DNA from: Chloroflexi bacterium OHK40
Lineage (GTDB): Bacteria > Chloroflexota > Chloroflexia > Chloroflexales > Chloroflexaceae
Direction of reading: 5' to 3'
DNA length: 48,345 nt
Assembly: GCA_004367505.1 (NCBI GenBank)
Contig: SFCB01000269.1
Location: forward strand, 1 to 48,345
Shown: positions 8,673-25,346 of the stretch, in pieces
How positions within the stretch are numbered: the first letter of the stretch is position 1
Layout of the letters: each line of letters opens with the position of its first letter
Position numbers and translations under genes: made by a program
Notes under the pieces: model-generated
Seen by the model: the letters and a program-made list of their open reading frames with translations, nothing else
Told to the model about the DNA's origin: nothing
The model's database searches: none

Positions 8673-9482
8673 TCAGCGGCGCCGGAGCTCGACCAGATAG
8701 TGGTCCGCCAGCCAGGGCAAAGGCGGCACTCCCTCCATCAGCCGCTCGAACCGATGGAGTGCCCAGGTGAGCCCTGGCCGCCCGCGAGCCCATTCCTCAA
8801 CGTAGCTGGGAGGCAGCAAGGCCCCAATGGCGCTCACGCGAACCGGGGTGAACCACGGCCCGTACGCCCTCCGCAGCGCCCCGATCGAGGGGTAGGTGAT
8901 CGTCAGGTCGCGCCAGCGCACCCCGCCCGACCGCAGCCGACGCAGCGCCTTGCGTGGCTCGCCCCGCCCGAGATACCAGCCCCACTCCCAGGGCACCAGC
9001 GGGCCCATCACACAGAGCAGCGCCGGGGCTCCGGGCCGCAGCAGCCGCGCCAGGCCCGCCGCGAGGCCCCGCTGGTCGGCCACGCAGTTCAGCCCGCCGA
9101 AGTTCGCGAGCGCGCCATCGAAGGGCGCCCCGGTGAACAACTCCAGCGCCTCTGGCTGCGCAAGTTCATGCAGGTCGAGCCGGGCGACATGCACAGAAGC
9201 CCCGAGCCCGGACGCCGCTACCTTGGCCCGCGCCACCGCCAGCATCCCCTCCGATACATCGGTGGCGATCACGCGCACGCCGCGACGGCCGAGGTACACC
9301 GCATCCTCGCCGGTGCCACAACTCAGCTCGAGCACCCGATCGCCCGGCGCGAATGCCGTGTCCAGATGGCGCCAGACGGCCTGACGCATCAGGCGCCCGA
9401 TCAGGCTCCGCGTGAAACGATCGTCGTAACCCGGCGCCATCAGGTCGAAGGGCGACGCCGGCTGATCGGTCGCGCCGCTCAC
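8673..9482 (-). CDS. Class I SAM-dependent methyltransferase, last gene of the glycan operon
   Basis: A 269-residue Rossmann-fold methyltransferase. Motif I is 'VLELSCGTGED' (~50-60), followed by 'VIATDVSEGML' (motif II, SAM ribose-binding acidic residue) and 'FDGALANFGGLNCV' (post-II). The GTG start at 9482 overlaps the TGA of the upstream radical SAM gene in a GTGA tetranucleotide, which indicates translational coupling and fixes the start. It closes the 13-gene run. The acceptor is unknown. Position suggests it methylates a product of the radical SAM/glycan pathway. Confidence 0.85.
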   Translation of the reverse strand: MSGATDQPASPFDLMAPGYDDRFTRSLIGRLMRQAVWRHLDTAFAPGDRVLELSCGTGEDAVYLGRRGVRVIATDVSEGMLAVARAKVAASGLGASVHVARLDLHELAQPEALELFTGAPFDGALANFGGLNCVADQRGLAAGLARLLRPGAPALLCVMGPLVPWEWGWYLGRGEPRKALRRLRSGGVRWRDLTITYPSIGALRRAYGPWFTPVRVSAIGALLPPSYVEEWARGRPGLTWALHRFERLMEGVPPLPWLADHYLVELRRR

Positions 9483-10867
9483 GCCTCCACCTCGTCGGCG
9501 CTCGCAAGCAGCGCGGCCCTGGCCGTGGCGGCGGCGGCATACTTCTCGGCAGCGGCAGCCGGATCGCTCGCCTCCAGCCGGAAGCCGGCCACCTCGTTGC
9601 GCAGCCACTGGTCGGCGAAGCGGTAGTAGCGGCGCGAGTGGCGCCCCCGCACCACGTAGTCCCGGTCGGTGGCCTGCACCCATGCTTTGCCCAGCTCGAT
9701 CTGCTGCTCGATGGCCTGGTAGTAGGGAGTGTTCTTGATCGGGTAGGCAACGGTGGTAAAGAAGATGTTCGGGTTGGCTTTCTTGACGTGGTCGATGGTG
9801 GCCTCGATATCTTCGAGGGTCTCGCCATCGTAGCCCCACATCAGGAACATGCCCACTTCGATCCCGTGCTTCTGGGCCATCTTCGTCGCCCACTGCACCT
9901 GCTCCACCTTCACCCCACGCTGCATCGCGTCGAGGATGCGCTGGCTGCCGCTCTCGGAGCCGATCCAGATCCGGTAGCAGCCCATCTCGGCCAGCGTGGC
10001 GAGCACCTCCTCCTTCATCATCCGGTCGGCGCGCGAGATCGTCTCGAAGGGCAGCCTGAGATTGCGGCGCTTCAGCTCGGCCGCGTAGTCGTAGAGCCAT
10101 TTGTGGCTGATGGTAAACACATCGTCGGCATACCAGACCTGCTCGGGCCGGTAGCGCTCGGCGATGTGCTGCACCTCGGCGGCGGTGTCGAGGGGGCTAC
10201 GGCGACGGTGGGAGTAGCCGAAGACGGCATGGGAGCACCATTTACACTTGTAGGGGCAGCCACGAGCGGTGATCAGGTTGACGCTGCCCATACCGTGATG
10301 GGTACGCCAGATCTCGACGTAGCGCTCAATCGCGATCTGCTCCCGGTCGGGCCAGGGGATGCTATCGATATCGGCGATCTGCGGACGCTCAGGGTTGTAC
10401 TGGGTCAGCCCGAGCTCGTCGCGGAAGATGACGCCCTGAATGCCGTGGAGCCGGTGAGGACCCCGCCGGGCCAGGGCCGGGATGAGCTCGCTGAGGGTCT
10501 GCTCGCCCTCGCCGACCACCACAACATCGGCGCCGTGGTCGAGGTATTGCTCGGGGTAGTTGGCGCTCTCAGGCCCACCCACTACCACCGTCCAGCCACG
10601 GCGCCGGGCCTCGCCCATGATCCAGACGACATTGCCGCGCGTGATCAGGTTGGTGTAGATGCCGAGCACGCCCCGCCCTGCGCTCAGCCGCGCGAGCAGC
10701 GCCTCACGATTGCTGAAGGTCGTGTCGAAGAGCTCGACGGCAAAGCCCTCGCGGCGGAGCCATGCCGAGATGTAGAGCAGCCCGAGCGGCGGGTAGGGCT
10801 TCATAATCTGCTGCTCTTTTTCGTCCTCCCAGAGGAAGTAGCCGTGGGTGAGAAGGATATCCGTCAT
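9479..10867 (-). CDS. B12-binding-domain radical SAM enzyme (second of a tandem pair)
   Basis: A 462-residue protein. The N-terminal ~140 residues have the cobalamin-binding Rossmann architecture ('YPPLGLLYISAWLRREGFAVELFD', 'VVVGGPESANYPEQYLDHGADVVVVGEGE'), without a DxHxxG motif, as is common for this class. The radical SAM core starts with Cys204-xxx-Cys208-xx-Cys211 in 'RGCPYKCKWC', which binds the [4Fe-4S] cluster. 'WYADDVFTISHKWLYD' and 'IGSESGSQRILDAMQRGV' are standard for the B12-rSAM group. Such enzymes carry out methylations or rearrangements at unactivated carbon. It is paralogous to the gene starting at 12554 and coupled to the methyltransferase after it. Confidence 0.9.
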   Translation of the reverse strand: MTDILLTHGYFLWEDEKEQQIMKPYPPLGLLYISAWLRREGFAVELFDTTFSNREALLARLSAGRGVLGIYTNLITRGNVVWIMGEARRRGWTVVVGGPESANYPEQYLDHGADVVVVGEGEQTLSELIPALARRGPHRLHGIQGVIFRDELGLTQYNPERPQIADIDSIPWPDREQIAIERYVEIWRTHHGMGSVNLITARGCPYKCKWCSHAVFGYSHRRRSPLDTAAEVQHIAERYRPEQVWYADDVFTISHKWLYDYAAELKRRNLRLPFETISRADRMMKEEVLATLAEMGCYRIWIGSESGSQRILDAMQRGVKVEQVQWATKMAQKHGIEVGMFLMWGYDGETLEDIEATIDHVKKANPNIFFTTVAYPIKNTPYYQAIEQQIELGKAWVQATDRDYVVRGRHSRRYYRFADQWLRNEVAGFRLEASDPAAAAEKYAAAATARAALLASADEVEA

Positions 10868-10890
10868 CAGGTTGCCTCCATGTCAGATGG

Positions 10891-10970: not shown

Positions 10971-12554
10971 TCAGTTATGCTCCTTGCTCAGATCGGGCGC
11001 GGCGAGCCGCAGGTAGCCCTTGCGGATCACCGTGGGCGCCTCGCTGCGCTCGCTCACCTCGAGCTGGCCGAGTTTGAACCAGTGATCGGCGAGCTCGGCC
11101 ACGGCGCTCGCGAGCGATTCGAGCGCGGCAGGATCGGCCCGCTGCCCCGCTGGCGCTCCAGCCTCCGCGCGGCAGGCGGCGAGGAGTTGCCGCACCTCCA
11201 GCTCGCGGTGCAGCAGCCGGTGCAGGTGCCGGTAGAAGGGAGAGCGATAGGTCCCCTGGAACATCATCGCCAGGTCGCCGCTGTCGGTCCAGTTGGTCTT
11301 ACTCCCGAGCTGCTCGTGGACGAGCTGGTGGAACCTGGTGCCCGGCAGCGGGTAACTCACGCTCACCCCGATGTTGTCGGGCAGGGCAGTGCGCACCAGG
11401 CGCACCGTTGCGAGAATGTCTTCGAACTGCTCGCCAGGGTAGCCGAACTGAATGAAGAAGCAGGCCCGGATGCCCGCCCGGCGCAGGCGCTCACGGGCAG
11501 CAAGGATCTCCTCGACGGTGATGCCCTTGTCCATGGCGTCGAGGATCTTCTGGCTGCCACTCTCGGCGCCCATCCAGACCTCCACGCAGCCGGCCCGGCG
11601 CAGCCCCTCGACCGCCTCGTCGGTCATCAGGTCGGCCCGCGACTGGATCATAAACGGCACGGCCGCATCGCGCGCGGCCACTTCGCGCCCGAAATCGGCC
11701 ACCCACCGGGGCCGCAGGCCGAAGATGTCGTCCGCGAACCAGATGTGGTCTGGCCGGTAGGTGGCCTTGAGGTAGGCCAACTCATCGGCGACGTTCGCGG
11801 GTGAGCGCATGGCGTAGCGCTGGCCCCAGATCGGCTTTGCGCACCAGTTGCAGTGGAACGGGCAGCCACGGGTGCTGACCATGTTCAGGCTGAAGTAGCC
11901 ATGGGCGCCGATCCAGGCCGCGCGGTAGCGCTCGATCTCAACGAGATCCCACGCCGGGATGGGGAAGACATCCGGCTGGCGCTCGACGGAGCGCTTCGCG
12001 GTGTAGCGCACGCGGCCAGGCGCGTCTGGCTCCGGCAGGACGAGGCCGGCGATCTGCGCGAGCGCGTTGAGGAGCGCGGGCGCATCGGCACGCTCGCGGT
12101 ACTCGCCAGGCTGCCGGCCCAGCAGCAACTCCACAACCTCCCGCAGCGTATGGTCGGGCTCGCCAACGAGGGCCGCCAGGGCGCCCTGGTCCAGATAAAG
12201 TTCGGGGTGGTCACTCACATCGGCACCGCTCACCAGCACCGTGGCGCCGGCCTCACGGGCCATCCTGATCATCGTCAGGGCGGCCTCGCGCATCCGGGTG
12301 AGGCACATCTTGCTGAGAAAGTTGAAGTTATCCTCGTAGATGGCCACAATCCGGGGCTGGTGGCGCTGCAACGCGGCGGCGAACTCGTGCTCGCCCTCGG
12401 CCAGCATGGCATCGAAGAGCGCCACACGGTAGCCGGCCATCCGCAGCACGCTCGCCGCGTAGAGCGTGGCCAACGGTGGGTAGGGTCGCATCTTCTCGGT
12501 CTGCTTCGGGTCGAAGGCCAGAAAGTACGAATGAGCCAGCAGTACGTCGGTCAT
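10971..12554 (-). CDS. B12-binding-domain radical SAM enzyme (first of a tandem pair)
   Basis: A 527-residue protein with the same layout as its downstream neighbour. The B12-binding-like domain is at ~1-145 ('PYPPLATLYAASVLRMAGYRVALFD', 'ATVLVSGADVSDHPELYLDQGALAALVGE'). The radical SAM core has Cys231-xxx-Cys235-xx-Cys238 in 'RGCPFHCNWC', then 'IWFADDIFGLRPRWV' and 'MGAESGSQKILDAMDKGI'. The C-terminal ~120 residues differ from the neighbour and may set substrate choice. The ATG at 12554 is preferred over TTG at 12557 because GAGGAGGG lies about 4 nt upstream of it. The substrate is unknown; the surrounding glycosyltransferases suggest a sugar or lipid carrier. Confidence 0.9.
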   Translation of the reverse strand: MTDVLLAHSYFLAFDPKQTEKMRPYPPLATLYAASVLRMAGYRVALFDAMLAEGEHEFAAALQRHQPRIVAIYEDNFNFLSKMCLTRMREAALTMIRMAREAGATVLVSGADVSDHPELYLDQGALAALVGEPDHTLREVVELLLGRQPGEYRERADAPALLNALAQIAGLVLPEPDAPGRVRYTAKRSVERQPDVFPIPAWDLVEIERYRAAWIGAHGYFSLNMVSTRGCPFHCNWCAKPIWGQRYAMRSPANVADELAYLKATYRPDHIWFADDIFGLRPRWVADFGREVAARDAAVPFMIQSRADLMTDEAVEGLRRAGCVEVWMGAESGSQKILDAMDKGITVEEILAARERLRRAGIRACFFIQFGYPGEQFEDILATVRLVRTALPDNIGVSVSYPLPGTRFHQLVHEQLGSKTNWTDSGDLAMMFQGTYRSPFYRHLHRLLHRELEVRQLLAACRAEAGAPAGQRADPAALESLASAVAELADHWFKLGQLEVSERSEAPTVIRKGYLRLAAPDLSKEHN

Positions 12555-12583: not shown

Positions 12584-14479
12584 TCAACCGAAGTAGGAGC
12601 CATGCACGCGCAGCAGCGCTGCGGCGGCGAAGGCCAGCCAGAAGCCGAGCCAGAGCAGCAACGCTCCGTGGCGCCGGCCAGGCGGGGCAAGATACGCAAC
12701 GCCGAGCGCGAGCAGCAACGCGACCGCCGGCAGGATCGGCAGCAGGTAGCGGCCCTGCTGGATGTACTGGGCGTCGATCAGCGCGTTGAGCGCCAGCGGC
12801 AGCAGTGCCAGCGGAACGAGGGCGAGCAGCGCCCCGAGCGGGGCACGCCGCGCCCGCCCCATGGCGAGCGCGGCCAGCGCGCCTGCCAGGCCAATCACGC
12901 AGAGGCCGCCCAGGGCCCAGGCCCAGAGCGACCCACGCACGAGAGGGATGTGCAGCCACCCGAAGTGACCCCAGAAGCTAGTGAAGAGCCAGGTGGCCCA
13001 CTCGCCAACGGGCATGCCCCACTGGAGCCTGGCCCCTTGCAGCAGCCAGATCAGCTCCTCGACCCGCAGGTAGCGCACGGCAGGGTACAGCGGCGAGTCG
13101 GGGCGCAGGGCGGGCCGCGCCAGCGACCCGTTGGCCACGAGGTTGCCCGGCAAGCCGACCCCCTGAGCCCAGATGTTGCTCACATAGAGGCGCCCGCTGT
13201 CGGCCACGATCCCGAGGCGCACGTCGTGGGCGTAGGCAGCCACGGAGGCGGCGATCTCGGCGCGCACCCCTTCGGGACCGGGAACACTGAACCGGTGCTC
13301 CTGGCGCCGCTCGCCGGTGTAGATCACCAGGCGCCCGCTGGCAGGGCCATGGCTCCAGACCAGCGCGCCAGCCCGCACGATGTTGTTGCGCAGGTAGACG
13401 GTGGCGACATCGGGGAGCACCTGCAGTGCCTCGCCGCCACTCTCGACGACCAGGGCGTAGCCGCCCCTGGCGGCAGCCACCCGTGGCGCGGGGGTGAGCG
13501 TGCGGGCATCGGCCCAGCGGGCCGCCGTGGCCCAGGCGAACTGCCCGCTCAGCCAGAGCCCGGCGATCAGCGGCAGACCGGCTCCGAGCAGCGCCGCCAG
13601 GCCCCGCCGGCGCCACGCCCCCGGACCAGCCGCAGCGCCGAGCCGGAGCAGCCAGATCCCCCCCAGGCCAGCGCCGAGCAGCGCGTACGGGAGCACGGTG
13701 CGCTTGACGCCGAGGCTCAGCCCGGCCAGGAGGCCGAAGAGCAGCAGATCGCGCCGGCGCAGCCCGGAGCTCACGGCGCGTACGAGCAGCAGGCAGAGCA
13801 CAGCGCCCAGCGCATTAGCCAGCGCGTCGTTGGTCATGGCCGCGCCGATGGCGGCTGCCATCGGTTGGAGCGCCACCAGAGCGGCGGCGGCCAGTGGAAT
13901 GAAGGCCTGGCCATGGGTGTCGGTCAGCAGGTGCTGCCCCGCCAGGTAGGTGCAGGCCACGGCGATGGGGAGGAGCAGCGCGTTAAGCGCTCGCAGCAGG
14001 TAGAGCTGGGCCTCGATGCTCCACCCACCCGTGAGACGGAGCGGAAGGGCGGCCAGCACAAAGTAGAAGGGTGGGTCGCCACCCACCTGGCGGGGCATGT
14101 GGAAGAGCGCACTGGCCTCGGCAAGCGTGATCGGGAGCGGCGCCGGGGTGACGCCCAGAAGGTGATCGTAGAAGCTGGCGCGCGCCATCGACTCCGTGAT
14201 CCGCCGCTCGAGCGCCGGGCTGTGATCCCAGCGCGTGGGGATCCGCCCGAGCTCGGCGGTGAGCCCGGCAAACTCGAAGAGCATGGGCTCGTCGGGCGCC
14301 TGCCAGGGTGGCACGCCCAGGGCGTAGATCAACCCGTGGCACAGGCCGATCAGCATGAGCAGGGCCAGGTGGATTGTCGTTCGGCGCTTGTCCATCATCG
14401 CCTGTTCGTGGCCTGTCTCCGGGAGCGAACCGCTGGCCAACGGCCCGGTGACGCCCCTGCGGGCCTCGCTCCCGCTCAT
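12584..14479 (-). CDS. GT-C type membrane glycosyltransferase-like protein (DUF2142/PMT-like)
   Basis: A 631-residue polytopic protein with about 11-13 transmembrane helices. The first outer loop contains 'PPWQAPDEPMLFEF' (Asp63-Glu64), the acidic pair expected in GT-C/DUF2142 and PMT-like enzymes, which transfer sugars from polyprenyl-phosphate donors outside the membrane. A large soluble segment (residues ~335-490, 'GEALQVLPDVATVYLRNN' onward) is inserted between helices and looks like a beta-rich extracytoplasmic domain. The start is uncertain: ATG at 14479, or the pair of ATGs at 14398/14395, where the more typical N-terminus MMDKRRTTIHLALLML begins. It lies 20 bp after the HprK-like gene. 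Confidence 0.75.
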   Translation of the reverse strand: MSGSEARRGVTGPLASGSLPETGHEQAMMDKRRTTIHLALLMLIGLCHGLIYALGVPPWQAPDEPMLFEFAGLTAELGRIPTRWDHSPALERRITESMARASFYDHLLGVTPAPLPITLAEASALFHMPRQVGGDPPFYFVLAALPLRLTGGWSIEAQLYLLRALNALLLPIAVACTYLAGQHLLTDTHGQAFIPLAAAALVALQPMAAAIGAAMTNDALANALGAVLCLLLVRAVSSGLRRRDLLLFGLLAGLSLGVKRTVLPYALLGAGLGGIWLLRLGAAAGPGAWRRRGLAALLGAGLPLIAGLWLSGQFAWATAARWADARTLTPAPRVAAARGGYALVVESGGEALQVLPDVATVYLRNNIVRAGALVWSHGPASGRLVIYTGERRQEHRFSVPGPEGVRAEIAASVAAYAHDVRLGIVADSGRLYVSNIWAQGVGLPGNLVANGSLARPALRPDSPLYPAVRYLRVEELIWLLQGARLQWGMPVGEWATWLFTSFWGHFGWLHIPLVRGSLWAWALGGLCVIGLAGALAALAMGRARRAPLGALLALVPLALLPLALNALIDAQYIQQGRYLLPILPAVALLLALGVAYLAPPGRRHGALLLWLGFWLAFAAAALLRVHGSYFG

Positions 14480-14499: not shown

Positions 14500-15498
14500 C
14501 TAGCTGTCGGTCAGGTGCTTCAGGAGGGTCACGGCAGTGCCCGGGTCACTACCGACACGCAGCCGGTAGGCGCCGCTGGCGGCAAGCGCTGCGGCCACGG
14601 TCGGGGCCTGGTCGCGCAGCAAATCAAACCCTGGTTCCCGCGGGTCACTCAGGGCGGCTGCCGCCTCGACCGCCGGGAGCGGTTCGAGCCGGCTGGCCTG
14701 CCCGGAGGAGCGCTCGACAAAGCAGAGGGCGACGCGCTCGGCATGGGTCACCAGCCGCTCCGAGCCGAGGGCGCTCACGTCCACCGTGAGTTTCAGCTTG
14801 CCATTGGCCAGCATGCGGGGCTCGATCCCGGCCAGCTCGGGGAAGAAGCGCGGCGCGTCTGGCAGCAGGTGGATCGGGCCTGGGTGCCCCCAGACGCGCA
14901 GGCCACGGGCCAGGCTCACGCAGACGGTATCTTCGGCAAGCAGGCTGAAGCCAGCGCGCACACAGGCGTAGCAGAGGGTTGATTTGCCGGCCATACTGGC
15001 CCCGACGAGCAGGACGGCCCGCCCGTTGCGCACCACACCGGCGGCATGCACGGGCGTCCGATCGCGCATGTTCACGAGCAGGAAGCCCAGGCACTCCAGG
15101 ACGTTCCGGCGCAAACTGGCCTCGTCGGCGGCCAGGGCGGGGGTTACAAAGGCCAGCGCGTAACCGTGATCAAGCTGGGCTGTCAGCACGCTGGCGCCCG
15201 CAGCAGCCAGGAAGGTGCGGCCATGGGCCCGGAAGACGAAGCGCTCGTCGTGGGCCAGGGGTAGGCCGGCGGAGCCAGGCAGGTGGACGACCACATCAAC
15301 CCGTGCGGCCGGGCCAGCGTCGATGAGCGCCGGGGGAAGCTGGCGCCAGCGCTGGAAGGCGCTGGCGGCGGTCGCGATCACAGCCGCACTGTTGCTGCGA
15401 TAGACCACGGGAACACCGAGCAGCGGCACCTCCAGCACTTCATCGAGGGGCGCGCTCTGGCCGAGCAGATCGGCTGCGGGAGCGAAGGATGTCCTCAT
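14500..15498 (-). CDS. HprK-like P-loop protein
   Basis: A 332-residue protein. Its C-terminal half resembles the HPr kinase/phosphorylase fold: 'HAAGVVRNGRAVLLVGASMAGKST' with Walker A GASMAGKST at 166-174, then 'LLAEDTVCVS' (~187), the Walker B-like strand of HprK proteins. The N-terminal ~140 residues are unlike classical HprK. HprK-related proteins of this kind are known from polysaccharide and RiPP loci, where their targets are unclear. No HPr gene is visible here. Its ATG overlaps the stop of the preceding methyltransferase (ATGA), so the two are translationally coupled. Phosphorylation of a sugar, lipid or small carrier is inference only. Confidence 0.75.
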   Translation of the reverse strand: MRTSFAPAADLLGQSAPLDEVLEVPLLGVPVVYRSNSAAVIATAASAFQRWRQLPPALIDAGPAARVDVVVHLPGSAGLPLAHDERFVFRAHGRTFLAAAGASVLTAQLDHGYALAFVTPALAADEASLRRNVLECLGFLLVNMRDRTPVHAAGVVRNGRAVLLVGASMAGKSTLCYACVRAGFSLLAEDTVCVSLARGLRVWGHPGPIHLLPDAPRFFPELAGIEPRMLANGKLKLTVDVSALGSERLVTHAERVALCFVERSSGQASRLEPLPAVEAAAALSDPREPGFDLLRDQAPTVAAALAASGAYRLRVGSDPGTAVTLLKHLTDS

Positions 15499-16337
15499 AG
15501 CGTTCCGGTAACCAGCGTAAAGGTCTGGATATAGTGGAAGTCGGGGCGTCGCAGGCAGAACGTCGCACTCGCCGGGTCACACAGGGCGGCCAGCGCGGCC
15601 CAATCATCGGGATCGAGGTAGGGGCGCAGGTGATCGCCCCAGTAGCCCCGGAAGAGCGCCTCCACGAGGTAGGCCTCGTCGGCCGGGGCTAGCGGGGCCA
15701 CCCGTTCTACCACCACCGTCTGTGGGCGCACCTGCCGCAGACCCGCGCCGCGCAGCAGCCCGACGAGCGCGCGAATGGCTGTAGTGTCGGCCTCGCGGAG
15801 GCCGTACTTGTCGCGGTAGTAGGCGCGGTTGGCCTCAGTGGCCACCCGCTCGAGCCGGGCATCCCAGGCGAAGACCATCTCGGGGAGCAGGTGGCTCTGG
15901 CCAAGGGCGAGCCGCCCACCGGGTCGCAGAAGCCCGGCGAGCGTCCGGGCGGCACCGAGCGGCTCGCGCAGGTGGTTGATCGTATTCACGCACCAGACGA
16001 GGTCGAAGCTGCCGGGGCGCAGCGGCGGGCGGGCGATATCGGCCTGGAGCACCACGGCGGCGCCGCCTGCGGCCCGGGCGATGCGCGTGTGGGCCGTGGC
16101 GAGGTCGATGCCCAGCGCCATGCCGCCGGGCGCCACTCGCTCGGCCAGCCAGAGGGTCGTGGAACCCACGCCGCAGCCGGCGTCCAGGGCCTGCTGGCCG
16201 CTCCGCAGGCCAAGGCCGTCGATCAGGGCGCGCAACTCGGGCTCCGCAAAGGCGTTGAAGAGCTGGAGCTTGCGGCCATAGTTGCGCTCGGGCGTGTCGC
16301 CGAGGAGGCCCGGCGGTGCTGGTGGAGCTGTTGTCAT
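15495..16337 (-). CDS. Class I SAM-dependent methyltransferase
   Basis: A 280-residue methyltransferase. Motif I is 'ALDAGCGVGSTTLWLAERV' (~50-68), motif II 'ALGIDLATAHTRIAR', and 'FDLVWCVNTINHLREPLGAARTLAGLLRPGGRLAL' supplies motifs III-IV. The ATG at 16337 overlaps the stop of the GT87 gene in ATGA, which fixes this start over longer in-frame alternatives reaching into the GT87 gene. Its own stop overlaps the start of the HprK-like gene. UbiE/sterol-like methyltransferases have this layout, but in this context O- or C-methylation of a sugar or polyprenol intermediate is as likely. Confidence 0.88.
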   Translation of the reverse strand: MTTAPPAPPGLLGDTPERNYGRKLQLFNAFAEPELRALIDGLGLRSGQQALDAGCGVGSTTLWLAERVAPGGMALGIDLATAHTRIARAAGGAAVVLQADIARPPLRPGSFDLVWCVNTINHLREPLGAARTLAGLLRPGGRLALGQSHLLPEMVFAWDARLERVATEANRAYYRDKYGLREADTTAIRALVGLLRGAGLRQVRPQTVVVERVAPLAPADEAYLVEALFRGYWGDHLRPYLDPDDWAALAALCDPASATFCLRRPDFHYIQTFTLVTGTL

Positions 16338-17716
16338 GGTGCTGGTGGGGGTTCTGAGCGCGGTGCCGGGTGAGCCGGCCAGCAGATGAAGGCGCCCCAG
16401 AGCAGGAGCGCGCCGTAAAGGCGCGGGTAGGCCAGGAGCGCCCGCGGCCAGCCGGCCCACGCGGCATTGTCGAGAAAATAGTTTGGCGTCAGCATCAAGG
16501 CGGCGCCGATCCCGGCGAGCAGCAGCGCCAGGCGCGGGCCCCTGGCCCGATCGATGCCTGTGGCGCCACCCGGGACAGCCTGCCGAACGGCCACCTGTTC
16601 TGCCCGCCCCTGCATGCTCTGTGGGGAAAGGACCCCAGCCAGCACGTCCTTGTGTGCGAGGAGCAGGGCGACGAAGAAAGGCGTGAGCAGCATCACGTAG
16701 TGGTGCTGCTCGCCGGCCGGCTGGGTAGGGACCACGAGACAGAGCATCGCGGCGCCGGCGAGCAACCGTGGCCGGCGCCGCGCACCGGCCAGCGTCGGGA
16801 CGAGCAGCGCGGCTGTGGCGGCAATCCAGAGCGCCGTGGCGATCCCGGGCGCGTGGAGCAGCGGCGCGGGAGTGTACGCGGCATCGAAGACGAAGAGCTG
16901 GCGTAGCAGGCTGGTGAGTGTCTGCAGGGCCGTCACCCCGAAGACCGGGTTCGCGGCCAGGTCACCTACCCGCCCGAAGAGATAAGCCTGCCAGGTGCCG
17001 ACCCCGACCAGCGGGAGCGTGCCCATAAAGCCGGCGCCGGCGAGGGCGGCAGCCCAGAACAGGGCACGCCAACGGCCAGCCACCAGGAGCAAGAGCCAGA
17101 GTGGCGCGCCAGCCAGCTTGGCGAGGGCCAGCAGCGCCAGCGCGGCGCCGCAGAGCCAGTCGCGTCCGCTCACGAAGCCGTAGAGCCATACGGCGTACCA
17201 GAGCGCCATCAGAGTATGCACCTGGGCGTAGCGCAGCTCGGCGTGCAGCGGCCGAAAGAGCGCAACGAGGAGCAACATCAGCGCAACCGTCGCCAGCGTG
17301 GCGCGCCCACCGAGGCTGGCCGCCGAGCGCGCTGCCAGCACACCGATCAGCAGGAGCCAGAGCAGATCCAGCGCCAGCCAGGAGGCCCGGGCCACGGCGG
17401 GCGGGAGCCAGGCCACGGGCAGCATCAGCAGAGCCATGGTTGGGGGCTGATGGCCGTAGATGTCGTTGCGCAGACCCAGCGCCCGCTCCCGCTCCTGAAA
17501 CCACGCGTTGTCGTAGATACGCGCGTCGAGCTCGCCGCTCACCACCAGCCGGGCCGCAGTGTAGTACGAGGCAAAGCCGAAGCTGTCGAACCCGACGGCA
17601 GGCAGCAGCACGCGCGCAAAGAACCACGCCGTCGCTACCATGGCCAGCGCCCAGAGCAGGATGGTACCTGGCGGCCGGCTCAGGCGCCGGGCAACCGTGC
17701 GCGCCGCACTACTCAT
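16334..17716 (-). CDS. GT87 family membrane glycosyltransferase (DUF2029)
   Basis: A 460-residue polytopic protein with about 10-12 helices. The first external loop 'GFDSFGFASYYTAARLVVSGELDARIYD' (Asp44 as presumed catalytic base) followed by 'GHQPPTMALLMLPVAWLP' is the signature of GT87 enzymes, which use polyprenyl-phosphate-mannose-type donors. This places at least one sugar-transfer step outside the membrane. The start ATG at 17716 overlaps the MBL gene's stop by 8 bp. Family assignment is good; the sugar is unknown. Confidence 0.85.
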   Translation of the reverse strand: MSSAARTVARRLSRPPGTILLWALAMVATAWFFARVLLPAVGFDSFGFASYYTAARLVVSGELDARIYDNAWFQERERALGLRNDIYGHQPPTMALLMLPVAWLPPAVARASWLALDLLWLLLIGVLAARSAASLGGRATLATVALMLLLVALFRPLHAELRYAQVHTLMALWYAVWLYGFVSGRDWLCGAALALLALAKLAGAPLWLLLLVAGRWRALFWAAALAGAGFMGTLPLVGVGTWQAYLFGRVGDLAANPVFGVTALQTLTSLLRQLFVFDAAYTPAPLLHAPGIATALWIAATAALLVPTLAGARRRPRLLAGAAMLCLVVPTQPAGEQHHYVMLLTPFFVALLLAHKDVLAGVLSPQSMQGRAEQVAVRQAVPGGATGIDRARGPRLALLLAGIGAALMLTPNYFLDNAAWAGWPRALLAYPRLYGALLLWGAFICWPAHPAPRSEPPPAP

Positions 17717-18590
17717 CGATCAGCCCCTCCTGGACCCAGCCTACGCGCGCCGGGTCGGCCTGGCCGCCCAGTTCGATGTAGACGCTCTCGATGTTCAGCC
17801 GGTGGGGAGCAGCATTCGCCGCCGGTTCGCGAAAGAGCATGCCAGCGCACCGCTCCACCGCCATCTCCAGGCTCCCACCCGCCCGCAGCACCGCAGCCAC
17901 GCGCTCCCGAAGCTCGGCAAGGTAGGCCCGGTCCGCGCTGAGGCGCTCCACAATCGCAGTCGGATCGTCGGTCGGGTTGCCATGGCCGGGCACCAGCGCG
18001 CGCATGGGGAGCCTGGCCAGCCGGGCCAGGCTCTGCTCGTAGGCGTCGAGGCTATCGCTCACAAAGGGGATCTCCACGTCGCTGAGGGTATCGGCGGCCC
18101 AGAGCGCGCCACTGGCCGGCTCAAAAAGCGCCAGCTGGTCGGCCGCGTGCCCGGGGATGTGGATTGCCTGGAAGGCCAGGTCGCCAACTGTCAGGCTGGC
18201 GCCGTCGCCGAGCAGCGTCGTGATCACCGGGGGCGTGAAGGGCGCCTCGCGTCCATAGCCGAAGCGCTGCTCCCAACGGCCGATCATTCGCAGCGTGGGC
18301 TCCTGCTGAGCGGCAAGTGTGGCGGCGAAGCTGGTGTGGGCGGCTACCGGCACGCCGGGGAGGCGCTCGGGTCCGAGGATGTGATCCCAGTGGCTATGCG
18401 TGAGCAGCACCAGCTCGACACGCGCGCCCAGGCTGGCCGCCAGATCGGCTGCTGCGGCGACATCATCGGGGTGCGGGCCGGGATCGATCAGCGCGGCGGA
18501 GCCGGCGCTGACGATCAGGCCGGCGTTGTAGTGCATCGATCGGCTCGGCAGAACCCACAGGCTGGCGTTGAGCTTTATCGGCCCTGGCAT
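17709..18590 (-). CDS. MBL-fold metallo-hydrolase
   Basis: A 293-residue metallo-beta-lactamase-fold protein. Metal ligands are visible as His65-x-His67-x-Asp69-His70 ('THSHWDH'), His148 ('IPGH'), Asp167 ('WAADTL') and His203 ('VPGHG'), a full dinuclear set of the glyoxalase II-like type. The C-terminal ~80 residues form a helical tail. The ATG at 18590 is chosen (GAGGAG just upstream) over GTG at 18593. It sits mid-operon between glycosyltransferases. A hydrolytic step on a glycan precursor or thioester is possible, but nothing in the sequence names the substrate. Confidence 0.88.
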   Translation of the reverse strand: MPGPIKLNASLWVLPSRSMHYNAGLIVSAGSAALIDPGPHPDDVAAAADLAASLGARVELVLLTHSHWDHILGPERLPGVPVAAHTSFAATLAAQQEPTLRMIGRWEQRFGYGREAPFTPPVITTLLGDGASLTVGDLAFQAIHIPGHAADQLALFEPASGALWAADTLSDVEIPFVSDSLDAYEQSLARLARLPMRALVPGHGNPTDDPTAIVERLSADRAYLAELRERVAAVLRAGGSLEMAVERCAGMLFREPAANAAPHRLNIESVYIELGGQADPARVGWVQEGLIDE

Positions 18591-18641
18591 CACTCTCCTC
18601 CGGTGAAAACCTCAGACTCAGGTCGGCCTGGCGTGGGCGGT

Positions 18642-18678: not shown

Positions 18679-19785
18679 TCATCGAGGCGTCCCGTAGAGC
18701 TGCTCAAACTGGCGTGCCGTCCATGCGGCGTCGTGGGCGCGGGCCCATTGCCGGGCGCTTCGGCCAAGGGCCTCGCGGCACGGCGGGTCGGTCAGGGTCA
18801 TCACAATCGCCCGCCCGAGCGCCGCCGGGTCGCCCGGGGGCACGGCAACGGCTGCCTCCGGGGCAAGCTCGGCGACCAGCCCCACCGCTGTGCCGACGGT
18901 GGGGGTAGCGGCCGAGGCGGCTTCGCACACCGCCACGCCCTGGCTTTCGTGGTAGGAGGCCTGGAGGTAGAGGTGAGCACGGCGCGCGAGCGCCAGCGCC
19001 TCGCTGTGAGGGCGCCAGCCGTGGAAGCGTACAGCCTTGCCAAGGCCCAGCCCCGCCGCCAGCCGGTGAGCGGTGCCGTCGAGCACGTCCTGCCCTACCC
19101 AATCCAGCGTGAAGGGCTCAGCGCAACCGGTGCGCGCCCGCAGCTCCCCACGCGCTAGCGCCAGTGCCCGCAGGAGCACCTCAGGACCCTTGACCCGATT
19201 GATACTGGCGACGGTCAGCAACTGCCAGGGCGGGCCAGGTGGCCGCGCGGCCGTAGCACCATCCACGAGCGCCGCGCCCAGCGGCACCAGGCGGGCATCG
19301 CGCCGGCGGGCCAGCAGCGGGCCGAGGGCATAGCGGCTGCCGGCGGTCACCACGTGGGACCGACCGAGGGCCAGGGCCGTGTGCGCGCGCTGCCGGGCAC
19401 TGAGGCGCCCGCCGTAGCCGATCTGCGGCAGCCTCACCAGCTCACCCCCTCCGAGGCTGGCTACCAGCGGCACCCCCAGCGTTGCGCCGGCCAGCAGGCC
19501 GAGGGTGCTGGTGGTGCCGAGCCAGAAGCTATGCAGTAGCTGTGGCTGGAAGCCGCGCAGGCCCCCCAGCAGGCGGGCGAGGCGCCGCCCGAGGGACGCC
19601 CGGCCGAGGCAGACCACCCGGGCGCCGCGCAGCTCGTAACTGGTCGGCGCATCACCTTGCTCAAGGGCGGCAACGAGCAACTCGTGGCGCGTGGCCAGCT
19701 CGCCGATCAGATCGAGGAGCGCCGGGATCACCAGGTGAACCCCGTCCTGGCCGACACCCCCCGGGACGATCAGGGCGATGCGCAT
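18679..19785 (-). CDS. Glycosyltransferase family 4 protein
   Basis: A 368-residue GT-B fold protein. The N-terminal Rossmann half begins MRIALIVPGGVGQDGVHLV. The C-terminal nucleotide-sugar half has 'LLTVASINRVKGPEVLLRALALA', the GT4 donor-binding strand, and 'ESQGVAVCEAASAATPTVGTAVG', the E(x7)E region. It overlaps the upstream GT4 gene by 16 bp. It is cytosolic, with no membrane helices. As a retaining transferase it would add a sugar to a lipid-linked acceptor; donor and acceptor are unknown. Confidence 0.88.
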   Translation of the reverse strand: MRIALIVPGGVGQDGVHLVIPALLDLIGELATRHELLVAALEQGDAPTSYELRGARVVCLGRASLGRRLARLLGGLRGFQPQLLHSFWLGTTSTLGLLAGATLGVPLVASLGGGELVRLPQIGYGGRLSARQRAHTALALGRSHVVTAGSRYALGPLLARRRDARLVPLGAALVDGATAARPPGPPWQLLTVASINRVKGPEVLLRALALARGELRARTGCAEPFTLDWVGQDVLDGTAHRLAAGLGLGKAVRFHGWRPHSEALALARRAHLYLQASYHESQGVAVCEAASAATPTVGTAVGLVAELAPEAAVAVPPGDPAALGRAIVMTLTDPPCREALGRSARQWARAHDAAWTARQFEQLYGTPR

Positions 19786-20909
19786 ACTCGCCTCACAAGA
19801 TCGGCATAGGCGGCGTAGGCAGCGCGGCCCACGGCCTCCCAGCTCAGCACGCGCTCGAAGCGGTCGCGCGCCGCCTCACGCTCACGGTCCAGGTTCCGGC
19901 GCGCCACCGCCACGATTGCGCGCGCGCAGGCCTCGGCATCGCCAGGGGGCCAGTGCGCGCCAACGGCTCCCCCCGTGACTGCGCGAAAGGCGGGGATATC
20001 GGTGATCACTGGCGGCAGGCCACAGGCCAGGGCCTCGATCAGCGCGAAGCCCCCCCCTTCGCGGTGGCTCCCGAGCACGAAGAGGTCGGCTGCGGCGTAA
20101 TAATCGGGGAGCTGGCACTGGGGCAAACGGCCCAGCAGCGCAACCCGTCCGGCCAGATCGGGCTGCGCGATCCGCCGCTGGACGGCCCCAAGGAGCTCTT
20201 CGCTCCCGTAGATCATCGTGAGCCTGGCACCAGGCAGCTGTGGGAGCGCGCGGGCCAGGCCCTCAAGCACCGTGAGTGGGTCCTTCACTGGGTGCAGGCG
20301 CCCAACCCAGAGCAGGGCCGGCTCGCCGGTCAGCCGCACAGGCACCCGCGCTGGCGCCCGCAGGGTTGTGCTGGCTTCGAGCACCGGATACACGGGCTGG
20401 TGAGGGCGAATGATCCCGGCGGCACGCCAGGGCCGGGCCAGCTCCGTCGACGTAAACAGGAAGCCATCAGCTGCGGCGAGCCCGAGGCGGGCCAGGGCCA
20501 GATGTGCAGCCCCGCGAAGCCCGTGGGGTGCGGGCGGATCGCCGGCATGATGCTGCACCACCAGTGCCACCCGTGGGGGCAGGGCTGCCCGCAGCGCGCG
20601 AGCTTGCAGCGGGAAGATCTGCCCCTGAAGATGCGCCACATCCGGGCCAACCGCCGCGACGGCCCGGTGAAGCCGCCGGGGGATGTGCCAGGTACGGGGC
20701 AACTGGCGGCGGCCATCGCGCACGAACTGGTAGCGCACCGACCCGATCTGCATGGCCGTATCGTCGTAAAAGCGCTGCACAACCGTCACCCTGGCGCCTG
20801 CGGCGGCCAGCGCCTCAGCCCAGTCGCGAAGAGCGTAGAAGCGCTCGATCAGCGCGTGGGGGCCGGGCACATGGGCTGGGAGCGGGTAGCTGACGATCGC
20901 GACGTGCAT
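19770..20909 (-). CDS. Glycosyltransferase family 4 protein
   Basis: A 379-residue GT-B protein. Its N-terminus MHVAIVSYPLPAHVPGPHAL resembles glycogen/capsule GT4 enzymes. 'ALLWVGRLHPVKDPLTVLEGLARAL' and 'EGGGFALIEALACGLPPVITDIPAF' are the classic GT4 donor-site motifs, with the catalytic-region Glu pair. It lies 3 bp downstream of the nucleotidyltransferase gene and overlaps the next GT4 gene, so the three are likely co-translated. It probably performs another sugar addition in the same pathway. Confidence 0.9.
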   Translation of the reverse strand: MHVAIVSYPLPAHVPGPHALIERFYALRDWAEALAAAGARVTVVQRFYDDTAMQIGSVRYQFVRDGRRQLPRTWHIPRRLHRAVAAVGPDVAHLQGQIFPLQARALRAALPPRVALVVQHHAGDPPAPHGLRGAAHLALARLGLAAADGFLFTSTELARPWRAAGIIRPHQPVYPVLEASTTLRAPARVPVRLTGEPALLWVGRLHPVKDPLTVLEGLARALPQLPGARLTMIYGSEELLGAVQRRIAQPDLAGRVALLGRLPQCQLPDYYAAADLFVLGSHREGGGFALIEALACGLPPVITDIPAFRAVTGGAVGAHWPPGDAEACARAIVAVARRNLDREREAARDRFERVLSWEAVGRAAYAAYADLVRRVCASP

Positions 20910-20912: not shown

Positions 20913-22175
20913 TTACTCCCGCACGCGCTGGCGCTCACGCCCCAACGCGGCCCGCAGCGCCCATCCGGCGGTATGGCCGGCGTGGCGCGCATAGGCGCCC
21001 GGCAGGCCACCGGCGGCCGAGGGGTAGCGCTGGCGCAACTCGGCGGGTGCCGGCAGTGCCACTCGCAGCAGCGCGCCGAGCCACTCGGCCCCGGGCCGGT
21101 ACCAGGCGAGCTTGAAGGCGGGCGAAGCCTCGCGCCGGTCGCAGAGCGACACCTGGCTGGGCGTCGTGTGGGCCAGCATGGCGCGGAGCGCTGCGGGCGT
21201 CTCGCGGGCCAGTCGCTCGCGCACGATCGGGGGCGCCAACGGGCCAAACAGGCGCTCAGCCAGGGCCAGTGGGGCATAGAGCAGGCGCGCCTCGCCGGCC
21301 CGCAGCGCATCATCGACGAGCCACTCCCAGCCGGCATCGCTCAGGTACGGCGCCACAAGCGCCAGATCGTAGAGCTGCACAGCCCGGAGGCGCCGGTTCA
21401 CAATATTGTGGCAGGTGTGGATCAGCAGGTGCAGCAGCAGCGCCTCGGGAGCCGGGGCCAGGCCAACGGCACCCCCAAACGCGCGCTCGCTGGCACCCGC
21501 CCGGAGCGCGGGGGTAATATCGTAGGCGATCGCGCGGAGCCGCTCGCCGACCGCAGTATGCACCTCGACCCCACGGGGGTTATCGGGGTGCTCACCATCC
21601 CAGGAGACCACCCGGGGCTCGCCGCGGATGTACACACGGTGGCGGGGCGTCTGCTCGCCAGGCCGATAGCCGAGTGCCAGCATCACGCGGTGGAGCCGCT
21701 CCACCGCTTCGGGGCGCACGAGCAGATCCAGGTCGGCCATGGGGCGCAAGGCCGGGTCGGGGTAGTAGTGCTCCACAAGCACGGCCCCCTTGAGCGGGAG
21801 CAACTCGACTCCGGCATGGGCCGCCCCATCCAGGATCGCGGCAAGGTCAGCCCGCATCAGTGCGACTCGTTGCCCATTCAGGGCCAGTTGCTCGGCGCAG
21901 TAGGCGCGCAACTCGGGCGCGAGGGCCAGCCATGCGGCGGTGCCTTCCAGGCGCGCGGCGAGCAGCGGGGCAACACCATGGACCAGGGCGGCACGGCGGG
22001 CGTCCGCCCACTCCCCCAGGCCCCAGGCGGCTGTCTCGCGTGAGATCCTGGTGGCGGCATCAGCACCCAGCCACGCGACCACTGCATCGGCCACACCAGG
22101 AGCCGGCGAAGCACCCCTCAGCGCCTCGGGCCCAGGACTGACCTCAACCTCATGCATTGCGAGATTTTCAGACAC
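20913..22175 (-). CDS. PF14907-type nucleotidyltransferase family protein
   Basis: A 420-residue protein with the polymerase-beta-like fold of the 'uncharacterised nucleotidyltransferase' family: 'PLKGAVLVEHYYPDPALRPMADLDLLV' has PLKGA at 127-131 and the metal-binding DLDLLV at 148-153. The C-terminal ~250 residues are helical, with 'LLHLLIHTCHN'. Family members occur in polysaccharide and RiPP loci, often near HprK-like proteins, as here; their reaction is not settled. No ATG has a ribosome-binding site. GTG at 22175 follows GAGAGG at 8 nt, so it is preferred over TTG at 22193 or ATG at 22157. Confidence 0.78.
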   Translation of the reverse strand: MSENLAMHEVEVSPGPEALRGASPAPGVADAVVAWLGADAATRISRETAAWGLGEWADARRAALVHGVAPLLAARLEGTAAWLALAPELRAYCAEQLALNGQRVALMRADLAAILDGAAHAGVELLPLKGAVLVEHYYPDPALRPMADLDLLVRPEAVERLHRVMLALGYRPGEQTPRHRVYIRGEPRVVSWDGEHPDNPRGVEVHTAVGERLRAIAYDITPALRAGASERAFGGAVGLAPAPEALLLHLLIHTCHNIVNRRLRAVQLYDLALVAPYLSDAGWEWLVDDALRAGEARLLYAPLALAERLFGPLAPPIVRERLARETPAALRAMLAHTTPSQVSLCDRREASPAFKLAWYRPGAEWLGALLRVALPAPAELRQRYPSAAGGLPGAYARHAGHTAGWALRAALGRERQRVRE

Positions 22176-22262
22176 AGCTGTGGCCTCTCTCAACCATCCT
22201 CTTGTCCTACCGGGCAGCCATGCGCCAGAGCGGGCACGAACCGTCGTGCAAGAGCAACGATT

Positions 22263-22313: not shown

Positions 22314-22326
22314 CCCGGTTCCCGCA

Positions 22327-23463
22327 TCAGACCGAGGCCAGCCGCCCGGCGGGTTGGGCGGCGGCGACACGATAGACGGCAAGCGTCTCACGGGCGGTGC
22401 GCTGCCACGAGAAGTCCCGGGCCCGTGCCAGGCCAGCGGCCCGCAACCGCCGGCGCAGCCCCTCGTCGGTGAGCAAGCGCTCCAAGCCATCGCGGATCGA
22501 GGCGATATCGCGCGGGTCCACAGTCAGAGCAGCATCGCCAGCCACCTCGGTAAGGGCGGCGGTCGCGGAGATCAGCGTGGGCGTCCCACAAGCCAGCGCC
22601 TCGATCACCGGCAGGCCAAAGCCCTCCGCGAGTGAGGGGAAGGCAAACACATCGGCGGCGCCAAAGATCCCCGGCAGATCGGCGCGCGGCACATAGCCCG
22701 TGAAGATCACGTCCTCGGCGCAGCCGAGCTGGCTAGCCTCGGCGTAGATCGCCCGGTACTGCCACCCGGGCGCCCCGACGAGCACGAGCTGCTGAGCCAC
22801 CAGACCACGGGCGCGCAACGCCCCCCAGGCCCGAATGAGGCGCACGAGATTCTTGCGCGGCTCCAGGGTACCGACAAACAACACGTAGCGCTCGGGCAGG
22901 CCATGCGCGGCGCGAACTCGCCGACGCTCCTCGGCGGAGGTGGGCCGGAAGATCGGCGCCGCCGCCTCGGGGATCACCACCACGCGCTCGGCGGGCACTC
23001 GCAGTAGCCGCACCAGATCGTTGCGCGCAGCGTTCGAGACGGTAATCACCCGGGCGGCGCGGCGGGCCACCAGGGGCACCAGCGGACGCACAAGCAACTG
23101 CTTGCGCAACGGGTGGTGGCGCGGCATCAAACTGAGCGTCATGTCGTGGATCGTCACCACGTAGGGGCACGGGCTATCCAGAGGGCCCAGCGAGTTCGGG
23201 AAATGGCAGAGGTCGGGCCGGGTAGCCCGAAGCTGGCGGGGCAAGAGCAGCTGCATCCAGAGCATGCGGTTGGGGAAGGGGCGCCAGAGATCACGTACAC
23301 GTGGGAGCTGGCCCAGGTGGTCCCGGTGATGCGATCGGTTTGCGAGCAACAGATACTCGTGGGCCTCCTCAGCCGCAGCGAGGCCCTGGAGCAACTCCAG
23401 CGTGTAGGTGCCGATCCCCGAGGGTCGCTCTCCGACGGCGGTGATCTCATAGCCAATTCGCAT
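22327..23463 (-). CDS. Glycosyltransferase family 4 (GT4) protein
   Basis: A 378-residue GT-B protein. 'MRIGYEITAVGERPSGIGTYTLELLQGLA' at the start is typical of GT4 mannosyl/rhamnosyl-type enzymes. 'VLFVGTLEPRKNLVRLIRAWGAL' and 'EGFGLPVIEALACGTPTLIS' are the donor-binding motifs. The ATG at 23463 is chosen because it begins this conserved N-terminus, follows a GGTAAGG-like site, and lies 7 bp after the ligase stop. It is the second gene of the operon. Confidence 0.92.
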   Translation of the reverse strand: MRIGYEITAVGERPSGIGTYTLELLQGLAAAEEAHEYLLLANRSHHRDHLGQLPRVRDLWRPFPNRMLWMQLLLPRQLRATRPDLCHFPNSLGPLDSPCPYVVTIHDMTLSLMPRHHPLRKQLLVRPLVPLVARRAARVITVSNAARNDLVRLLRVPAERVVVIPEAAAPIFRPTSAEERRRVRAAHGLPERYVLFVGTLEPRKNLVRLIRAWGALRARGLVAQQLVLVGAPGWQYRAIYAEASQLGCAEDVIFTGYVPRADLPGIFGAADVFAFPSLAEGFGLPVIEALACGTPTLISATAALTEVAGDAALTVDPRDIASIRDGLERLLTDEGLRRRLRAAGLARARDFSWQRTARETLAVYRVAAAQPAGRLASV

Positions 23464-23470
23464 AAGTGCC

Positions 23471-25291
23471 TTACCCCGATCGTGCGTGCTTCCATGAGTT
23501 CGTGCTCCGGCCCCCACCTGAATCTACGTCTGGTCCTCCGGCACCAGCCCCGCCCAGCATGCCGAGCAGCGTCCAGAACAGCCCGTAGGTCGGGGTGAAG
23601 GCCAGAAACACATCGAGAGCGCCATGGAGCATAAAGGCGGCGACCCCGAGCAGCGCCCCGGCGAGCACGTCGTTCGCCAGCGCGCCACGCGGCAGTGCCT
23701 GCAAGCCCATCCAGAACCCCGCACCAACCATCCCAAGAAAGGCCAGCAGGCCCGCGACCCCGGCCCCGGTGAGCAACTCGAGGTAGAGATTGTTGGTATG
23801 TACGCGGGCATCGAACACCTGGAGCCCGAGGCGCGGGCCGTACACGTGGCGAAAGACATCGGGACCGATCCCGAGCAATGGCCGCTCGCTCCAGAGCTCA
23901 AGCGCCACCAGCCAGAGCTCGCGGCGACCAGGGGGGCCAGGCTGAGGGGCAATCACCCTGGGGGTGCTAGCAGGCTCAGCAGGCGGAGGCGCAACCCCCG
24001 GCGCCGGGCTTCCACCCACCTCCACCGTGAGCCGGGCCGGCGCAACTCCCATCTGGCTGAACCAGCCACGACCGATATACTCGCGCAGGAGATCCCACGC
24101 CAGCACATAGCGCCCCGGTCTGTCCGGCGCCTGCACCGTCGCGGTGAGCGTCACCGTCGCCCCGGGCGCCACGGGATGCGGAAGCTCGGTGCGCACGCCC
24201 TCGAAGCGCACCACCGCCCCGGTCTCCGCATCGAGCCAGTGGTAAGCCAGCCGCACCGGTCGCAATCCCGTGTGCTGCCACGTGAGCCGCCCGTTGTTCG
24301 TAAGGGCAATCGGAACGGCGCGCCGCTCGTTGGGCGCCATTGGTGCCACGGGCGAGGGCTGGTAGATCGCGCCATACCAGCGCGCCACATCGGGCTCGGT
24401 CACCCGCAGCCTGAAGGTCGGGCTGGCAACGGCCAGGCCCAGGCCCAGCGCCGCGAGCCCCGCACCAGCCAGCCCCGCGTAGCGCCCGGCCCTGGGCCCC
24501 AGGGCCCGCCACGCCACCAGCGGCGTGAGTACCAGCAGTGCGCTGGTAGTCAGCAGGGCGGCGCGGCTGTAGGTGAGCAGCGTGGCGAGGAGTAGGAGCG
24601 GGGGCAGCACAAAACGCGCGGCCCTGGCAAGCAGGGAGCGCCCGGCCCACCCCCCGATCGCGACGAGCACGCTCAACGGCAGTAGCGCCTCGAAGTACTG
24701 GGCCGCCGTGTTCGCGTAGCTGAAGGTCGCGCTCAACCGCAGCAGGCCACCCATGTACGTACTCTCGGTCTTGAACGGCGCGAGGGCTGCCATCACGCGC
24801 GGAGCCTCGCTCAGCTCCAGCAGGCCGAGGGCCGCGCTCACACCCGCGCCGCCCAGGAGCGCGCCGGCGAAGAGCCTGGCGCCCCCCATCTGGCGCAGCG
24901 TATCGGCGAGGCAGAGCGCGAAGGCGGCGCCCTGAGCCTGCCGCAGGGCAAATTTCAGCGCCCCGAGGCGCTGCTCGGTCGCCAGTGCGGCGCTCAGCAG
25001 CAACAGGCCCACAACCAGCGCGCTACCGACGAGCAGCCAGCGCGGCAGATCGGGCCATCGCTGCTCAACACCCAGCACCAACGCCCAGAGGCCGAGGGGC
25101 AGCAGCAGCAGCAACTCGACATTGGTGAGCGTGATCGGCCCAGCCGCGAAGCCGGCAGCCAGCTCGAAGGGGAGGGCTGCCAGGGCCAGCGCCAGGCTCG
25201 TGCGCAGCACTGCGCGCAATGGCGACGGAGGTCGTCTGGTCATGCGCTCAGGAACGACGCGGGTCGCCCGTAGACCACCGTGGGTCGGCAT
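23471..25291 (-). CDS. O-antigen ligase-like (Wzy_C) membrane protein with an inserted Ig-like domain
   Basis: A 606-residue polytopic protein with ~11 helices. The core 'LSATFSYANTAAQYFEALLPLSV', 'LLTYSRAALLTTSALL' and the late loop 'RPLLGIGPDVFRHVYGP...VHTNNLYLELLTGAGVAGLL' are the hallmark blocks of O-antigen ligase/polymerase proteins, which join lipid-linked glycans outside the membrane. Between helices, residues ~310-426 form an inserted domain of NBR1/NEW-like Ig style ('LTNNGRLTW' near its start, 'PGRYVLAWDLLREY' and 'GWFSQMGV' near its end), followed by a Pro-rich linker to ~455. It is first in the operon, 20 nt after the predicted transcription start. The start is 25291 or possibly ATG 25243. 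Confidence 0.85.
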   Translation of the reverse strand: MPTHGGLRATRVVPERMTRRPPSPLRAVLRTSLALALAALPFELAAGFAAGPITLTNVELLLLLPLGLWALVLGVEQRWPDLPRWLLVGSALVVGLLLLSAALATEQRLGALKFALRQAQGAAFALCLADTLRQMGGARLFAGALLGGAGVSAALGLLELSEAPRVMAALAPFKTESTYMGGLLRLSATFSYANTAAQYFEALLPLSVLVAIGGWAGRSLLARAARFVLPPLLLLATLLTYSRAALLTTSALLVLTPLVAWRALGPRAGRYAGLAGAGLAALGLGLAVASPTFRLRVTEPDVARWYGAIYQPSPVAPMAPNERRAVPIALTNNGRLTWQHTGLRPVRLAYHWLDAETGAVVRFEGVRTELPHPVAPGATVTLTATVQAPDRPGRYVLAWDLLREYIGRGWFSQMGVAPARLTVEVGGSPAPGVAPPPAEPASTPRVIAPQPGPPGRRELWLVALELWSERPLLGIGPDVFRHVYGPRLGLQVFDARVHTNNLYLELLTGAGVAGLLAFLGMVGAGFWMGLQALPRGALANDVLAGALLGVAAFMLHGALDVFLAFTPTYGLFWTLLGMLGGAGAGGPDVDSGGGRSTNSWKHARSG

Positions 25292-25317
25292 ACTTCAGGG
25301 TTTCGTAGGTACCAGGC

Positions 25318-25346
25318 ATTGTAAGGCCCGTAGACCTGTTTGTCTA
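25318..25346 (-). promoter_or_regulatory. Promoter of the 13-gene glycan operon
   Basis: Minus-strand -35 TAGACA at 25341-25346, a 17-bp spacer, and -10 TACAAT at 25318-25323. Predicted start near 25311, 20 nt before the ligase ATG at 25291. Confidence 0.6.

Follow-up and report, generated by a model that had tools for sequence, protein, structure and literature searches.

The known functions of cobalamin radical SAM enzymes are few. The class-1 members, such as MgmA, TsrM, AprD4, OxsB and CysS and the families HpnJ, BchE and TIGR04072, combine a B12-binding domain with a CxxxCxxC radical SAM domain. MoeK5, from the pathway of the phosphoglycolipid moenomycin, is a precedent for the C-methylation of sugar units by radical chemistry. 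GenK is another such precedent (PMC4039129). Ring-forming cobalamin radical SAM enzymes act on hopanoids, lipids, porphyrins, nucleotides and peptides (PMC13142503). Wzx/Wzy-type EPS and O-antigen loci carry a PF04932 protein together with GT4 genes and membrane glycosyltransferases (GTs). In pseudomycoidin biosynthesis the kinase PsmK phosphorylates, after which PsmN, annotated as a nucleotidyltransferase (NTase), adds hexoses to Ser (PMC9266682).

The DNA analyzed here, called the window, is a stretch of 48,345 nucleotides from Chloroflexi bacterium OHK40 (contig C145 of genome G000; 6.93 Mb, estimated by the tool as 100% complete with 3.5% contamination). ORF lists, a codon-model gene caller and Pfam/NCBIfam scans confirmed the 13 co-directional minus-strand genes of the preliminary description, reaching from 25291 down to 8673 (Table 1), and the gene content listed there was supported by Pfam, with the HprK-like protein staying below the Pfam cut-off. 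The run is real and non-random and joins known families in a new combination; it is undescribed as far as searched, as the literature searches returned no description of the locus, in line with the earlier remark that no described locus has this gene set. The three GT4 genes of the run fall within about 5 kb, against a genome density of 63 GT4 genes per 6.93 Mb, and two radical SAM genes stand in tandem where the whole genome gives 15 Radical_SAM matches; such clustering exceeds chance.

Table 1. Genes of the run, in their order from position 25291, and the promoter-like site preceding them.
Feature	Position	Strand	Evidence and remarks
Promoter-like site TAGACA-17-TACAAT	25346-25318	-	10/12 matches; weak; 3 sites found vs 1.2 expected in shuffles
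WzyC, O-antigen ligase/polymerase-like membrane protein with inserted Ig-like stretch	23471..25291	-	PF04932 42.6 bits (cut-off 31.7)
GT4a glycosyltransferase	22327..23463	-	PF00534/PF13439; alternative GTG start 23517
NTP5, PF14907 nucleotidyltransferase-like	20913..22094	-	Pfam 149.6 bits (above gathering score); alternative TTG start 22193
GT4b glycosyltransferase	19770..20909	-	PF00534; homologue in L016 (42%), weak one in L061 (27%)
GT4c glycosyltransferase	18679..19785	-	PF00534; subfamily N-terminal motif VPGG...IPALL..L (shared form VPG...IPAL)
MBL-fold metallohydrolase	17709..18593	-	PF00753 70.5 bits; HSHWDH (HxHxDH) motif
GT87 membrane glycosyltransferase	16334..17716	-	PF09594 57.8 bits; sole other rS1 locus L052 (29%)
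MT1, SAM-dependent methyltransferase	15495..16337	-	PF08241
HprK-like kinase	14500..15498	-	Walker A GASMAGKS; PF07475 24.3 bits (below 33.3)
DUF2142 membrane protein, GT-C-like	12584..14479	-	PF09913 44 bits; also adjoins rS1 in L072
rS1, class-1 cobalamin-binding radical SAM (predicted)	10971..12554	-	PF04055 80.2 bits; PF02310 39.8 bits (cut-off 32.1)
rS2, class-1 cobalamin-binding radical SAM (predicted)	9479..10867	-	PF04055 74.7 bits; PF02310 49.8 bits (cut-off 32.1)
MT2, SAM-dependent methyltransferase	8673..9482	-	PF13649

Overlaps of 4-16 bp, reported before for several junctions, were found at five of them (GT4b/GT4c 16 bp, MBL/GT87 8 bp, and GT87/MT1, MT1/HprK-like and rS2/MT2 4 bp each). 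The widest gaps, GT4a-NTP5 with 232 bp (133 bp with the TTG start), rS1-rS2 with 103 bp and GT4c-MBL with 85 bp, contained no terminator-like sites. The single promoter assumed earlier was not demonstrated: a weak consensus-like site precedes the run, and a second weak promoter-like site was detected at 22193, inside the GT4a-NTP5 gap. Because of this second site and the weakness of the upstream match, transcription of all 13 genes as a single transcript is plausible but unproven. The search for riboswitch control gave zero Rfam matches across the window. Recent acquisition of foreign DNA judged by composition was rejected, since in GC and GC3 the radical SAM genes do not differ from the remainder of the window, and this uniformity does not suggest a chimeric contig. 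A defence system was rejected as well, as PADLOC gave no match save a weak one, at the level of radical SAM, for rS2.

The most solid finding of the analysis is a cassette of rS1, rS2 and MT2 which recurs across phyla and is linked both to glycosyltransferases and to a partner of the NTase type. Both rS1 and rS2 have an N-terminal Rossmann B12-binding domain and a CxxxCxxC radical SAM domain in common with the class-1 enzymes. Unlike the named families, they fall under no NCBIfam equivalog, scoring below the curated cut-offs of HpnJ, BchE, ladderane TIGR04072 and PhpK (best 110.2 vs 360 and 123.6 vs 577.6), and form two separate clades of their own with their own signatures, RGCPxxCNWCAKPIxG for rS1 (87 sequences) and RGCPxxCxWCSHxxxG for rS2 (36 sequences), each kept at the 95% level. 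The nearest named NCBIfam relatives were TIGR04072 (ladderane/lipid), HpnJ and BchE, and the rS1 model (pLDDT 88) was closest to the folds of MgmA, TsrM, AprD4 and OxsB. Since methylases are mixed here with a dehydratase and a ring-contracting enzyme, the reaction type of rS1 is not readable from the fold. Of the C-methylated or rearranged sugars or lipids envisaged in the preliminary description, C-methylation would be one possibility next to ring formation, as the nearest families include both ring-forming enzymes and methylases. GenK and MoeK5, likened to rS1 and rS2 by description, are likewise B12 radical SAM enzymes.

A genome-wide scan yielded 356 rS1 relatives, from which 80 loci were kept and analyzed by gene calling and BLAST. 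The rS2 gene was present in 37 of 89 rS1 loci (window included), mostly downstream and on the same strand, and was mostly followed by MT2. Among relatives the arrangement is rare: the radical SAM pair occurred in one of 60 relatives (G016, same family), and in a sample of 400 genomes of the phylum, window genome included, an rS2 copy of at least 55% identity was found in only eight others. The order of all 13 genes was seen nowhere else in the genomes examined, so that a conserved order in relatives, by which the preliminary description was to be judged, failed for the whole run, but part of its genes recurred jointly in other phyla. The rS1, rS2, MT2, HprK-like and PF14907 genes and two GT4 families recurred jointly in an Acidobacteriota, an Actinomycetota and a gammaproteobacterial genome, the last one without PF14907. 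Seven of the 13 genes (rS1, rS2, MT2, HprK-like, NTP5, GT4b and GT4c) were accompanied by an ABC-2 exporter in locus L016; six were present in L015 and five, with a weak GT4b, in L061. Such partial recurrence in distant bacteria suggests an undescribed pathway to an unusual, probably exported, sugar-containing molecule.

In the rS1 tree (FastTree, local support only), the window protein was placed in the 13-row clade A (support 96) with members from Methylomirabilota, Beta- and Gammaproteobacteria, Acidobacteriota, Planctomycetota, Armatimonadota and Actinomycetota. The 69-row clade C comprised the remaining Chloroflexota, among them G016 and a Roseiflexaceae MAG, with the exception of G175, found in clade A. 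The nearest relative of rS2 was an Acidimicrobiales protein (72%). As the window rS1 belongs to a cross-phylum clade, apart from the clade-C copy of its own family, its horizontal acquisition is likely judging by the tree, in which single placements could reflect misbinning, since several loci are MAG contigs. The two clades differed in partners. Among the 20 loci of clade A and the basal Acidobacteriota, HprK was found in five, NTP5 in four and the family c2 in none; clade C had c2 in 56 of its 69 loci and HprK and NTP5 in none, with Wzy, flippase and GT genes around. Chloroflexota rS1 loci were frequently accompanied by flippase and Wzy genes. A search for c2 in the window genome, run without a positive control, gave zero matches. 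Two signature-defined, GT-linked clades spread over several phyla offer an entry to new surface-glycan or glycolipid chemistry.

In Acidobacteriota, the loci L021, L035, L049, L052 and L137 contained up to five B12 radical SAM genes together with a SPASM radical SAM and an amidohydrolase-family protein, part of such clusters also with a cytochrome c/DUF5777 protein (c25). These multi-rSAM clusters possibly represent a separate pathway. Homologues at the level of the rs3 and rs4 radical SAM families and of the amidohydrolase family c14 were absent from the window genome; as these are common partners elsewhere, the product may differ.

The HprK-like protein scored 36.6 bits against HprK_rel_A (TIGR04352; below 200). 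The GKS of its Walker A motif was kept across nine relatives, and relatives were found in L015, L016, L061, L135 and L137. NTP5 retained invariant G, R, DxD, E and H residues (G103, D121, D123) and occurred together with rS1 in L015, L016 and L021. HprK was located on other contigs of the genomes that carry L013 and L014, in the multi-rSAM clusters L135 and L137, in the latter beside a PF14907 protein. The rS1 partner of clade C, c2 (e.g., L072:9072-10001), is without a Pfam match and is coupled to rS1 by ATGA in about half of the loci, many of them from Chloroflexota. Its model (pLDDT 92.5) predicts a winged-helix-like N-terminal part and an NTase-fold core with a conserved GSLA...DxD motif, the top matches being nucleotidyltransferases (best Z 7.6, best Foldseek E 3e-3). 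Treating c2 and PF14907 as one family was rejected, as hhalign gave a probability of 0.4% with an alignment covering the NTase motif only; by sequence they would be at most distant members of a superfamily. The modelled fold of c2 and its ATGA coupling to rS1 make an NTase-type partner a recurring feature, which is suggestive, not proof, of a replacement of NTP5 by c2. By analogy with PsmK and PsmN, a kinase and NTase-annotated pair comparable by function, the HprK-like protein and NTP5 could together attach a sugar or a nucleotide through a phosphate; unlike that system, the run has no precursor-processing genes.

The link to glycans was evaluated from the surroundings of rS1. The WzyC-GT4a pair adjoins rS1 in L050, L063, L072 and L080, with 57% identity of GT4a to the copy in L072, and the GT4c subfamily adjoins rS1/rS2 in seven loci of four phyla (L015, L016, L061, L113, L115, L117 and L118). 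In two Acidobacteriota loci, a GT4a-type protein and rS1 were fused in one uninterrupted ORF (L051:8747-11539, 930 aa; L088:8756-11539, 927 aa), probably by one fusion event, since the two sequences are close. The fusion and the c2-rS1 coupling make the glycan link testable with two or three proteins. Near rS1 homologues, 56 GT4 places were counted versus 11.2 expected, an approximately 5-fold enrichment that is only indicative because the loci are related and the expectation derives from the density of the window genome alone. GT, Wzy or flippase genes were detected in 51 of the 86 other rS1 loci and no glycan gene in 35; few or none were nearby in the clade-A loci L011, L012 and L026. This context partly supported the glycan reading of the preliminary description. 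Its claim of a complete make-and-join path was not supported: the domain scans detected no initiating phosphoglycosyltransferase, no flippase or ABC exporter and no NDP-sugar enzyme among the 13 proteins. The run thus shares GT4 genes, a PF04932 protein and membrane GTs with Wzx/Wzy-type loci and differs from them in lacking these functions and in having tandem B12 radical SAM enzymes, an HprK-like kinase and PF14907. No MBL homologue was found in other rS1 loci and, as MBL, GT87 and MT1 have almost no counterpart there, some of the 13 genes, these three in particular, may be unrelated passengers.

The preferred reading, given somewhat less than an even chance, is that the 13 genes form an operon for the biosynthesis of a glycoconjugate, placed at the surface or exported, that contains a chemically unusual unit. 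We infer the following path, including each catalytic step, the substrate, the step order, a lipid carrier and the reliance on a flippase not linked to the run. The rS1, rS2 and MT2 enzymes would produce or modify this unit, either by C-methylation or by ring formation or rearrangement at an unactivated carbon. The HprK-like kinase would phosphorylate a hydroxyl, and NTP5 would then nucleotidylate the phosphate or, as in the PsmK/PsmN pair, attach a hexose. The glycan would be extended in the cytosol by GT4a-c and exported by a transporter encoded elsewhere, and outside, GT87/DUF2142 and WzyC would add sugars, polymerise or ligate. A bolder version, put forward quite tentatively and rather unlikely, is a horizontally spread, undescribed system in which the unit made by tandem B12 radical enzymes would be joined to a glycan through a phosphodiester by a kinase and NTase-fold pair, with PF14907 in one clade and c2 in the other.

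Other explanations were weighed against the glycoconjugate operon. The run could comprise two adjacent units merely sharing a transcript or region, an EPS or membrane glycan set (WzyC, the GT4s, GT87 and DUF2142) and a small-molecule or lipid module (HprK-like, rS1, rS2, MT2 and NTP5). This division, a minority possibility that deserves attention, would agree with the Acidobacteriota cassette, which is set amid more B12 radical SAM enzymes, a SPASM radical SAM, an amidohydrolase and methyltransferases, where glycan genes are scarce, and with the lipid and pigment enzymes (HpnJ, BchE, ladderane) being the nearest named families of rS2; the existence of the GT4a-rS1 fusion, the position of GT4c next to the cassette in four phyla and that of NTP5 between GT4a and GT4b in the window argue for one unit instead.

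The same relationships, TIGR04072, HpnJ and BchE, and the action of ring-forming enzymes on hopanoids, lipids and porphyrins (PMC13142503) would be expected if rS1 and rS2 worked like ladderane- or HpnJ-type enzymes and introduced rings or branches into a membrane lipid, with the GTs adding glycolipid head groups. Such a pathway appears improbable, as every such score was far under the curated cut-off, methylases and the aminoglycoside dehydratase AprD4 are among the nearest solved folds, and fatty-acid or isoprenoid genes were not identified in the run. A lasso-type RiPP cluster, in which HprK and PF14907 would phosphorylate and glycosylate the C-terminus, came into consideration through L144 (1455-11589). 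In this lasso-type cluster, from the genome that also carries the rS1 locus L010, HprK-like and PF14907 genes are paired with PqqD, two Asn synthases and an ABC gene, as in the PsmK/PsmN system (PMC9266682). The run gave no PqqD-like match (the best, E 0.084, lay far downstream), nor did the rS1 loci, and neither an Asn synthase nor a protease was present among the 13 genes. With the B1 and C proteins absent, this reading is largely excluded and very improbable.

At its start, the run is divergent from rplU, rpmA and rpmE (ribosomal L21, L27 and L31; 25667-27035, +), which are preceded by a sigma-70 promoter matching the consensus at 12/12 positions, and its end faces a convergent SDR gene (7370-8128, +). 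A large protein encoded at 1840-3627 (-) had no NCBIfam match, and the longer ORF (1840-3831) had no Pfam match. About 3 kb downstream of the run, a VanW/PG_binding_4 gene was located at 3890-5746 (-). In the clade-A genomes G433 and G175, with only two VanW matches each, one VanW gene shares the strand of the HprK-like gene and is no more than about 1.4 kb away from it. VanW genes were mapped at L138:5334-7112 and L139:6429-8165, the gene order in L139 being VanW-GT4c-HprK-GT4b.
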